DNA of 64,000 nt from Sphingomonas phyllosphaerae. Its GTDB lineage: Bacteria; Pseudomonadota; Alphaproteobacteria; Sphingomonadales; Sphingomonadaceae. The DNA lies in NCBI GenBank assembly GCA_036946405.1, contig JAQIJC010000001.1:2363001-2427000 (forward strand), read 5' to 3'. The notes under the pieces were generated by a model, which saw only the letters and a list, made by a program, of their open reading frames with translations, was not told the origin of the DNA and ran no database searches. Positions 31,418-33,749 of this stretch are shown piece after piece. Each line of letters begins with the position of its first letter. Within the stretch, counting starts at the first letter, position 1. The position numbers and the translations under genes are program-made.

Positions 31418-31500
31418 CTGTCATTGCGAGCGTAGCGCAGCAATCCAGAGCGTCCTGATCCGGCTCCGGGTTGCTTCGCTGCGCCCGCAATAACAAACGA
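31418..31500. repeat. Inverted repeat, CATTGCGAGCG family
   Basis: Arms gtcattgcgagcgtagcgca and, about 30 bp later, the inverted gttgcttcgctgcgcccgca form an imperfect stem of about 25 bp after the acyl-CoA dehydrogenase gene. A shortened relative occurs near 63436. This is a short dispersed intergenic repeat; a terminator or REP role is inferred. Confidence 0.7.
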
Positions 31501-31576
31501 CAGGCGGGGCTTCGGCGACAATCCGTCGCCGATGTACAGCGTGGCGTGCAGCTCGTCGTCTTAGCCGGAACAACGG

Positions 31577-31607
31577 GCAAAAAAATAGCGGCCCGAAGGC
31601 CGCTATT
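31577..31607 (-). terminator. Rho-independent terminator of the 81-residue protein gene
   Basis: Perfect 10-bp stem AATAGCGGCC/GGCCGCTATT with a TTCG loop on the minus strand, followed by a run of T residues (plus-strand aaaaaaa at 31579-31585). It begins 27 bp after the stop codon at 31634. Confidence 0.9.
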
Positions 31608-31633
31608 CCTTACCCCCGGAGGAGCAGGTCAGC

Positions 31634-31879
31634 TTAGTTGCTGTCCGAGCTATCGTCTTCGTCAGCGACGACGACGATACCGGCCACAACGGCCGCAGCT
31701 GCCAGAACGGCAACGATCACGCCGCCACCGGCGAGCTCGTTCTTCTTGGCCGACGGAGCCGAAGCGCGGACCGACTTGGCGACCGACAGGCTGGCTGCCG
31801 AGTTGGCAGGCGCGGCCATCGCCGGAGCAACCGCCATCGTGGCGGCGGCAGCAGCGAGCATATACTTGGCAATACGCAT
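31634..31879 (-). CDS. Small exported or membrane protein of unknown function
   Basis: An 81-residue protein with a signal peptide (MRIAKYMLAAAAATMAVAPA, cleavage after AMA likely), an Ala/Ser-rich segment with basic residues, one strong transmembrane stretch (GGGVIVAVLAAAAVVAGIVV) and an acidic Ser/Asp tail. No family is recognised; similar Ala-rich small proteins are common in sphingomonads. It is a self-contained transcription unit: promoter-like boxes at 31906-31934, GGGAG six bases before the ATG, and a strong terminator at 31577-31607. That arrangement suggests an abundant monocistronic mRNA. Confidence 0.8.
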   Translation of the reverse strand: MRIAKYMLAAAAATMAVAPAMAAPANSAASLSVAKSVRASAPSAKKNELAGGGVIVAVLAAAAVVAGIVVVADEDDSSDSN

Positions 31880-31905
31880 GATGAACTCCCTTTGCGTGCA
31901 GGGCA

Positions 31906-31934
31906 TCTCATAACTACGCGTGCGCGAAATGCAA
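31906..31934 (-). promoter_or_regulatory. Probable promoter of the 81-residue protein gene
   Basis: On the minus strand TTGCAT (31929-31934) and TATGAG (31906-31911) are separated by 17 bases, 26 bp before the start codon, with GGGAG near the ATG. Both boxes are fair matches to sigma-70 elements. Confidence 0.5.
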
Positions 31935-31954: not shown

Positions 31955-32713
31955 TCATGTGTTCAGGATCCATGTTTCACGATCCTCGATGCCCAGCGCC
32001 GTGAGCTTGCCCGAGGCATAAGCGCCCGTATCCACGCCGATCCGGTTGGGTCGACGATCGACCTCCGCGGTAATCGTGTGACCGTGCACGATCATTTTCG
32101 AATGCGCCCCGCGATGTTCGAGAAAGCTGTCGCGAATCCAGCGCAGGTCGCTGGGTTTCTGTTCGTCGAGCGGTACGTCCGGCCGCACCCCGGCATGGAC
32201 GAACGCATAGTCGCCAGAGACGATCAGGTCCTCGAACCCGTCGAGAAACGCGCGATGCTCGGCCGGCACCACCATCGACAGCCGTTCGGCAAGCTGTGGG
32301 TAATCGAGCGAATCATATTCGGCGCTGTCGATGCCGTAACTGAGCACCGTTTCCTTGCCGCCGACGCGACAGAACATTCGTAGCGCGTCCTTGGCGCCGT
32401 CCAGTGCGTGCAGGAACAACTCCTCGTGGTTGCCCTTCAGGAACCGGATACGGGGTCGCTGCTCCGCCAGCGCCATCAGCCGCGCGATCACGCCCGCTGA
32501 GTCGGGGCCGCGATCGACCAGGTCGCCGAGGAAGATCAACGTTGTTTCAGCGGCGCCGCGCGCTGCGTCGTCGGCGTCGATCATCTCCAGCAATTGGTCC
32601 AGCTCGAAACGGCAGCCGTGGATATCGCCGATCGCATAAATTCGGCTTCCCGCTTCTGGCGCGAAGGCAGGGCCGGGAGCGACGCGGGACGAACGAAACA
32701 GCTTCTTGAGCAT
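31955..32713 (-). CDS. PPP-type metallophosphatase (serine/threonine protein phosphatase or Ap4A hydrolase-like)
   Basis: A 252-residue metallophosphoesterase with the three signature blocks in order: YAIGDIHGCRFELDQLL, FLGDLVDRGPDSAGV and FLKGNHEELFLHAL, then VHAGVRPDVPL and MIVHGHT for the remaining metal ligands. This is the bacterial PrpA/lambda-phosphatase group. There is no signal peptide. ATG 32713 gives MLKKLFRSSR; the frame is open further up but without support. The substrate could be a phosphoprotein or a dinucleotide polyphosphate. It lies 75 bp upstream of the 81-residue protein gene, which has its own promoter. Confidence 0.9.
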   Translation of the reverse strand: MLKKLFRSSRVAPGPAFAPEAGSRIYAIGDIHGCRFELDQLLEMIDADDAARGAAETTLIFLGDLVDRGPDSAGVIARLMALAEQRPRIRFLKGNHEELFLHALDGAKDALRMFCRVGGKETVLSYGIDSAEYDSLDYPQLAERLSMVVPAEHRAFLDGFEDLIVSGDYAFVHAGVRPDVPLDEQKPSDLRWIRDSFLEHRGAHSKMIVHGHTITAEVDRRPNRIGVDTGAYASGKLTALGIEDRETWILNT

Positions 32714-32879: not shown

Positions 32880-33749
32880 ATGACCATCAAGCCGGTACGC
32901 AAGGCGATTTTCCCCGTAGCGGGGCTCGGCACCCGTTTCCTGCCCGCCACCAAGGCGATGCCCAAGGAAATGCTGACGGTGGTCGACAAGCCGCTGATCC
33001 AATATGCCGTCGAGGAAGCGCTGGAGGCGGGGATCGAGCAGATCATCTTCGTCACCGGGCGCGGCAAGGGCGCGCTCGAGGATCATTTCGACATCTCGTT
33101 CGAGCTCGAGACGACGATGCGCGCGCGCGGCAAGAGCCTGTCGGTGATCGAGAACATCCGCCAGCAGCCCGGCTCGCCGGTCTATGTCCGCCAGCAAGAG
33201 CCGCTCGGGCTCGGCCATGCGGTGTGGTGCGCGCGCGACATCGTCGGCGATGAGCCGTTCGCGGTGTTGCTCCCCGACGAGCTGATGGTCGGCACGCCGA
33301 ACTTCATGGCGCAGATGGTGCAGGCCTATGACAAGGTCGGCGGCAACGTCATCGGCGCGCTCGAAGTCGCGCCGGAAGAAACCGACAAATACGGCATCAT
33401 CTCGCCGGGCGCGCGCGACGGTGCGCTGACCGAGGTGACCGCGCTGGTCGAGAAGCCCGCCAAGGGCAGCGCGCCGTCGAACCTGATGATCCCCGGCCGC
33501 TACATCCTCCAGCCCGAGGTGATGAAGATCCTCGACGCCAAGGAAAAGGGCGCTGGCGGCGAGATCCAGCTGACCGACGCGATGGCCAAGCTGATCGGGC
33601 AGCAGCCGTTCCACGGCTTCACCTTCAACGGTGAGCGGTTCGATTGCGGCGACAAGACCGGCTTCGTCACCGCCAACCTCGCGCTGGCGATGGCGCGTGG
33701 CGATATCGGCCCGGCGGTGCGCAGCTTCGCCGAAGCGCGGCTCGGCTGA
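32880..33749 (+). CDS. galU: UTP--glucose-1-phosphate uridylyltransferase
   Basis: Makes UDP-glucose from UTP and glucose 1-phosphate for polysaccharide and glycolipid synthesis. The 289 residues start with AIFPVAGLGTRFLPATKAMP, containing the nucleotide-binding loop and KEM lysine, and continue with VDKPLIQYAVEEA, EPLGLGHAVWCARD, LPDELM and GGEIQLTDAM, all GalU signatures. AGGAGG-like bases (caggaggacc) precede ATG 32880. It is convergent with the MoeB-type gene, with only 3 bp between stops. Confidence 0.97.
   Translation: MTIKPVRKAIFPVAGLGTRFLPATKAMPKEMLTVVDKPLIQYAVEEALEAGIEQIIFVTGRGKGALEDHFDISFELETTMRARGKSLSVIENIRQQPGSPVYVRQQEPLGLGHAVWCARDIVGDEPFAVLLPDELMVGTPNFMAQMVQAYDKVGGNVIGALEVAPEETDKYGIISPGARDGALTEVTALVEKPAKGSAPSNLMIPGRYILQPEVMKILDAKEKGAGGEIQLTDAMAKLIGQQPFHGFTFNGERFDCGDKTGFVTANLALAMARGDIGPAVRSFAEARLG

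Follow-up and report, generated by a model that had tools for sequence, protein, structure and literature searches.

A large unnamed family of small, putatively exported membrane proteins in Sphingomonas and its relatives, probably helpers or anchors for the surface sugar coat

Within a 64,000-nucleotide stretch of Sphingomonas phyllosphaerae DNA (the window, taken at its full length), some 360 bases had been read as a self-contained unit for an exported or membrane protein of 81 residues. Is this unit a gene, and if so, what could so small a protein do in the cell envelope? As judged by sequence comparison, the unit is genuine: it encodes a small, predicted exported membrane protein of a large unnamed family found in Sphingomonas and relatives, and this protein is probably a helper or anchor for the surface sugar coat. 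The features of the locus, with the evidence for each in brackets, are as follows.

31579..31607, minus strand: UUCG intrinsic terminator (hairpin and T run; fold; family-wide hairpins)
31637..31879, minus strand, stop codon 31634-31636: coding sequence of the 81-aa protein (ORF; purifying selection; homologues)
31637..31663, minus strand: residues 73-81, acidic tail ending D-S-N, with a near-invariant penultimate Ser80 (family alignment)
31664..31729, minus strand: residues 51-72, predicted membrane helix (hydropathy; AlphaFold2)
31730..31813, minus strand: residues 23-50, disordered Ala/Ser-rich linker with a near-invariant Arg38 (composition; low pLDDT)
31814..31879, minus strand: residues 1-22, signal peptide-like, cleavage expected after AMA (sequence, by eye; conservation of P19 and A22)
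31893-31886, minus strand: Shine-Dalgarno sequence AAAGGGAG (sequence; conserved in orthologues)
31907..31912, minus strand: weak candidate -10 box TATGAG (sequence; consensus scan negative)
31929..31934, minus strand: weak candidate -35 box TTGCAT (sequence; consensus scan negative)
31955..32713, minus strand: calcineurin-like metallophosphatase gene, upstream in the same direction and conserved with the small gene (PF00149, E 1.1e-14; adjacency)
32880..33749, plus strand: galU-like nucleotidyltransferase gene, divergent, at the opposite end of a conserved block (PF00483, E 1.5e-26; synteny)

A selected reading frame and its expression signals

The reading frame runs on the minus strand from 31879 to 31634, comprises 81 codons with a TAA stop and encodes a product of 81 amino acids (MRIAKYM...DSSDSN). 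Alternative frames are open at the locus too, as would suit a chance ORF in high-GC DNA with no gene behind it, but this explanation is refuted by dN/dS values far below 1 and also by family-wide conservation, and we give it practically no weight. A dN/dS near one had been named beforehand as the outcome that speaks against a gene; the dN and dS found are 0.006 and 0.17 against the nearest named relative, S. endophytica DSM 101535 (L038, 99% over the protein), 0.006 and 0.30 against L039, and 0.029 and 0.60 against L040. The ratio of ~0.04 to the nearest relative indicates purifying selection, and the small ORF is thus a selected protein-coding gene. Together with the homologues described below, this bears out the protein proposed in the sequence-only reading.

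The expression signals read from the letters fared well, with one partial exception. The Shine-Dalgarno sequence of the small gene, AAAGGGAG, is strong and is kept in relatives. The promoter boxes TTGCAT and TATGAG are indeed present at their proposed place with a spacing of 16 nt (31934-31907), yet they are weak, matching the consensus at 3/6 and 4/6 positions by our own count, and a consensus promoter scan found 0 promoters; TTG and part of the -10 box recur in the closest relatives. The proposed UUCG terminator is formed by the hairpin AATAGCGGCC-TTCG-GGCCGCTATT plus a T run (31607-31579). The fold of 31570-31640 reaches -32.1 kcal/mol (z -3.4), and 0/200 shuffles were equally stable. A consensus terminator scan returned 0 terminators, probably because G-U/A-U pairs consume the T tail. 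In our own scan, a terminator-like hairpin follows within 120 nt 3' of 111/142 family members, against 10/489 control pieces that were taken at random from these loci and could include coding sequence. A TTCG loop is present in 35 of the 111 hairpins.

Plan of the protein and spread of the family

The N-terminus resembles a signal peptide by eye, as had been proposed, and cleavage of the 81-aa protein would be expected after AMA: P19 is kept in 97/100 aligned members and A22 in 98/100. R38 of the linker recurs in 95/100 and S80 in 97/100. All 100 aligned members carry a Ser within the last four residues, and the Ser is penultimate in 89/89 complete proteins of a first set and in 53/57 of a second, of which 4 repeat the first set (L053, cut by a contig end, is omitted from the C-terminus counts). 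Over 100 members the linker is 27% A and 17% S, and the tail is 40% Asp with a mean net charge of -3.8 (range -8 to 2). Likewise, the single strong membrane segment held up, with one strong hydrophobic stretch (Kyte-Doolittle 19-residue maximum 3.08) and AlphaFold2 helices at 2-21 and 49-73 (mean pLDDT 69.6, low confidence between and after the helices).

In a cleaved type I form, the linker would be periplasmic and the C-terminal Ser and tail cytoplasmic, which would put the tail beyond the reach of a periplasmic ligase or protease. The acidic tail is at odds with the positive-inside rule, and this orientation of the small protein is therefore tentative.

The helix-plus-tail module is shared with a larger protein of different N-terminal part, which carries it at its C-terminus in two genomes (L095, L246). 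In L095 the module scores 36.5 bits, against a maximum of 5.0 in 200 shuffles, with a model built without L095; the larger proteins of both loci have no Pfam match. A Gly-rich motif, a helix and a charged tail, in a module shared with an otherwise different protein, recall PEP-CTERM and GlyGly-CTERM. These sorting signals carry a known signature and a basic tail behind the helix. The tail of the small family is acidic instead (mean as given above), and no PEP-CTERM or GlyGly-CTERM model of NCBIfam is among the matches of the 100 members; a signal of this type was therefore rejected.

A search with the single sequence matches 32/61 genomes at E<=0.01, all within the 37 of the same genus and 0/24 of other genera. 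Profiles reach further: the C-terminal profile matches 54/60 genomes of the genus at E<=0.01 and 59/99 of the taxonomic family at E<=0.1, and the full profile 70/147 genomes of the order at E<=0.01, with 1.6e-4 as the best value outside the window's own family among the matches listed. Across the class, 36/289 genomes match at E<=0.01; many of these are, by eye, signal-peptide matches in long ORFs, and the likely homologues retained come from just two genomes, both of one other family (L188, L189). Small uncharacterised genes found in most sampled genomes of the genus (54/60) are thereby given a testable family.

Genomes carry several copies, six at E<=1e-9 in G120. The paralogue search with the protein's core, which the sequence-only reading had proposed, uncovered three further homologous loci in the window's genome (G000), one of them split by a frameshift. 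This split copy (G000:C1:31817-32054, L004; about 7818-8058 in L093) lies upstream of a nusG-like gene, spread over two reading frames, and is either a decayed copy or a sequencing error; relatives L048, L068 and L094 keep an intact copy at the same nusG-like site. The alignments omit the frameshifted copy (L004/L005/L093/L109), one half of which is counted among the 79 loci described below.

The earlier remark that the sequence belongs to no family familiar to its reader holds for curated Pfam and NCBIfam families, none of which fits the 100 members; PHROGs gave nothing convincing for the window protein alone. Matches to TrbC/VirB2 pilin (6/100 members, best E 1e-4), Trp_oprn_chp (15/100, best 0.0015), Podoplanin (5/100) and NCBIfam lectin_2 (4/100) were judged to reflect signal-peptide or helix composition. 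Three matches to solved structures, the best being 7ue2 at E 6e-6 and presumably a designed protein, were put down to composition as well. A sequence-string search of papers returned 0, and searches of one open-access library on Sphingomonas small proteins, EPS and YjbE/GfcA brought up no report of the family; the accessible parts of PMC5399355 and PMC11340318 do not show it.

A small, exported, multi-copy protein with a hydrophobic helix could also be a bioactive peptide of the bacteriocin or toxin type, secreted and hydrophobic at its core. Against this, no immunity or transporter gene was recognised among the neighbours (read by eye), and orthologues are under strong purifying selection rather than diversification; on these two grounds the bacteriocin reading was rejected, and we regard any such peptide as very improbable.

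Gene neighbourhoods and what they suggest

In relatives, the small gene (SMALL) stands at the end of a block ordered galU-wecB-wecC-M48/PDZ protease-metallophosphatase-SMALL. The window retains the phosphatase gene, SMALL and the nucleotidyltransferase gene at 32880..33749, which we take to be galU; the window locus is a shortened form of this conserved block. Among 48 related loci in named records, the phosphatase gene lies within 600 bases of the small gene in 21; 19 of these 21 also have galU, 9 also wecB and wecC, and 6 also the M48/PDZ gene in the 5-kb flank. The description of the unit as self-contained therefore stands as regards its own terminator, but not as regards its surroundings, since the phosphatase gene precedes it in 21/48 loci and often a longer block does so. 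For one protein of each kind, Pfam supports the assignment as epimerase, dehydrogenase or M48+PDZ protease. OPX or Wzy_C genes occur in the fetched flank of 0/48 related loci. The slot after the phosphatase is occupied in L095 and L246 by the larger protein with SMALL's C-terminal module.

A REP-like repeat, CATTGCGAGCGNAGCGNAGCAATCCAG, occupies 31422-31448 on the plus strand, in the gap that separates the acyl-CoA dehydrogenase gene from the terminator of the small gene; an imperfect second arm can be seen by eye at about 31467-31493. It has one match in the window and 61 + 60 copies at up to 2 mismatches in the genome (control 0). Many of these form inverted pairs about 44 bases apart, which marks a REP-like element, and the paralogue at G000:C1:1900377 has one such pair immediately downstream.

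For the family at large, we examined 79 loci from 46 genomes picked for having a member, obtained by merging 85 rows at E<=1e-9 that lay within 2 kb of each other (tandem copies); besides the frameshifted copy, two rows of the 85 have an internal stop (G238, G175), and twelve rows at E 1e-9 to 1e-6 stand outside the main count. Neighbouring genes were called by our own codon-usage caller and named by eye except where Pfam was run; the caller missed the small gene in L247, L248, L251, L255 and L257, and two profile matches (L249, L252) were signal-peptide false positives and are uncounted.

With expected values that assume random placement, and in related genomes (one genus provides 7 of the 15 OPX cases), an OPX gene (PF02563) lies within 10 kb of 15/79 loci (1.46 expected), a Wzy_C gene (PF04932, O-antigen ligase family) within 2.5 kb of 9/79 (0.38) and within 10 kb of 16/79 (1.52), the window-type metallophosphatase within 1 kb of 6/79, the window's own included (0.07), and the M48/PDZ protease within 5 kb of 11/79 (0.26), or 13/90 with the twelve weaker rows added; these enrichments are strong, but they are no exact probabilities, and P values computed on this basis come out too small. 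The Wzy_C counts use 141/147 rows (6 below Pfam's cut-off were dropped) and the metallophosphatase counts 56/58 (2 short partial matches were dropped). The M48/PDZ protease has one match in 52/54 genomes.

These associations could be the ancestry of a few loci rather than present function, the small protein being a general structural protein of the envelope. Such an explanation, which we consider rather unlikely, agrees with the absence, by hand count, of both OPX and Wzy_C from the 10 kb around 61/79 loci, with the terminator-like hairpins that many members (111/142) have of their own, and with the several copies per genome, six in G120. Yet members from seven genera, with differing gene orders, have Wzy_C or OPX within 10 kb (hand count), and SMALL adjoins Wzy_C in another alphaproteobacterial family. 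There, a likely homologue is placed directly upstream of an O-antigen-ligase gene in two genomes (L221 by eye, L222 by Pfam), with 35.0 and 30.9 bits against maxima of 12.4 and 10.6 in 200 shuffles. The orders include sugar transferase-SMALL-Wzy_C-OPX-Wzc (L227, L230, L265), Wzc-unnamed gene-SMALL-wecB-wecC (L097; with one extra gene between in L238 and L253) and galU-wecB-wecC-M48/PDZ-glycosyltransferase-SMALL-unnamed gene-Wzc-OPX (L256); the unnamed gene has no Pfam match. In the window's genome, all four family loci are distant from OPX (244 kb at the nearest, 459 kb for the window gene), and none lies within 10 kb of Wzy_C.

The protease and the phosphatase open another explanation, namely a regulated small membrane protein that is subject to M48/PDZ proteolysis outside and, inside, to a phosphatase acting against phosphorylation of the tail Ser, and that tunes or reports on the envelope and carries no glycan. 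M48 and phosphatase genes are each linked to the family independently, at sites far from OPX genes as well: SMALL and M48 form divergent pairs in G010 and G187, where the nearest OPX genes are 541 and 634 kb away. HExxH is kept in 7/7 M48 proteins read, Pfam finds a PDZ domain in the single M48 protein scanned (L222), and the Ser of the acidic tail would be cytoplasmic under the type I topology. However, the phosphatase is assigned its substrate class by inference, and the last residue of PDZ ligands is usually hydrophobic, whereas the tail ends in N or P. We hold this explanation to be unlikely.

Several further sites recur. Members lie beside tatC or upstream of the nusG-like gene, and some stand alone; near tatC (L140-L147, L155, L156) small genes are single, tandem or triple, most beside an amidohydrolase-like gene (named by eye). 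M48 metalloprotease genes are found repeatedly near family members (L222:2077-3102, L086, L096, L097, L221, L234, L239), also in divergent orientation and away from export genes. In G137, two tandem small proteins with acidic linkers lie directly upstream of an OPX gene (L261:6153-6710), and the Wzy_C genes among the matches listed are >270 kb from them. The cluster-borne relatives L258:6164-6511 and L265:6064-6441, beside Wzy_C, have a two-cysteine stretch before the helix and end in ISP and DSPGG. The cluster-borne copy L231 (G238:C1:625449-625715), flanked by genes for a sugar transferase and a Wzy_C protein, contains one internal stop.

A possible accessory of surface-polysaccharide assembly

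The best-supported statement is that the protein would be a small membrane accessory of surface-polysaccharide assembly. In its fuller form, to which we assign a probability of about 0.45, it would be a Sec-exported, single-pass accessory of Wzx/Wzy-type assembly in Sphingomonadaceae, with a mode of action resembling that of E. coli GfcA/YjbE. Anchored in the inner membrane and with the linker on the periplasmic side, the protein would be the acceptor or adaptor of an enzyme of the O-antigen ligase family; the M48/PDZ protease may trim or release it; and paralogues outside the clusters, the window's included, may serve the same machinery in trans. The earlier suggestion of a cell-surface small protein is partly supported, in that it agrees with the polysaccharide-gene association described above; none of the findings bears on the envelope-stress role suggested alongside it.

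Three facts suggest the acceptor role: a subset of members is encoded next to the ligase family, the disordered linker is rich in Ala and Ser, and a Ser close to the C-terminus is conserved. In its boldest reading, a glycan would be carried on the Ser-rich linker or on the C-terminal Ser. According to the accessible part of PMC12645811, a C-terminal Ser is the acceptor for TfpO and Ala-rich disordered regions are acceptors for PglL, and substrates of TfpO, TfpM and PglS are often encoded near their enzyme while those of PglL usually are not. Since Ser, Ala-rich region and linkage thus differ by class, no single class in that part of the source fits all three facts of the small protein. The acceptors of these O-OTases (TfpO/TfpM pilins, PglL targets) resemble the family in the Ser at or near the C-terminus, in the Ala-rich disordered segment and, for a subset, in the enzyme-adjacent gene, here of the Wzy_C family (same part of PMC12645811). 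The enzyme is within 2.5 kb in 9/79 family loci, the window gene not among them. Unlike them, the small protein is no pilin, has a tail after its membrane helix and is a candidate acceptor.

Going further, the C-terminus of helix, acidic tail and S-[N/P/A] might be a modular signal that a Wzy_C-family ligase recognises when it joins surface polysaccharide to peptides held in the membrane, their release being set by the M48/PDZ protease; we rate this as quite unlikely. If true, the signal would be present on many small proteins and an occasional larger one, and would anchor the sugar coat to protein in bacteria that are not known to have ordinary LPS. A subset of the family is in any case tied to a Wzy-type ligase, a PDZ protease and a phosphatase, which bears on how sphingomonads hold their surface polysaccharide and on the role of GfcA/YjbE-type proteins. 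In Sphingomonas sp. LM7, as described in the accessible part of PMC11340318, the polysaccharide made by one cluster is secreted and that made by another belongs to the cell surface.

The closest known parallels in plan are E. coli GfcA of the group 4 capsule operon and YjbE (PF11106) of the yjbEFGH operon, with 80-101 aa, a signal peptide, a Ser/Thr/Ala-rich low-complexity linker, a hydrophobic stretch, a polar tail and polysaccharide genes as company. GfcA is described in the accessible part of PMC8592465 as a small Ser/Thr-rich protein, whose modification by O-antigen its authors speculate about. The tail of GfcA and YjbE is a Thr tail, whereas that of most family members is D-rich and ends in S-[N/P/A]; furthermore, the small family is multi-copy and mostly away from export genes, linkage to polysaccharide export, the YjbE-like feature, being confined to a subset (OPX 15/79, Wzy_C 9/79) to which the window gene does not belong. 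YjbF-YjbG-YjbH/GfcB-D were not recognised beside same-family members in the gene lists read by eye. Homology to the E. coli proteins was rejected, since profile scores are unconvincing against shuffles: with the A3 profile YjbE reaches 6.9 bits (1/200 shuffles as high) and GfcA -1.3 (37/200), and with the C-terminal profile both fall below most shuffles. The PF11106 model matches 0/100 members at E<=0.05; it matches E. coli YjbE and does not match E. coli GfcA.

Among alphaproteobacterial YjbE-like proteins, beside which YjbF/YjbH were recognised by eye, the first L223 copy scores at shuffle level; L215 and the second L223 copy score above shuffles with A3, not clearly so with the C-terminal profile. 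L217 (G491) lies with YjbF (PF11102) and YjbH (PF06082) by Pfam and with SLBB and galU-like genes by eye. It has the same plan as the small family, with a Thr-rich C-terminus and weak similarity only, and scores above all 200 shuffles with both profiles (A3, 21.5 against 13.3 bits; C-terminal, 18.9 against 7.2).
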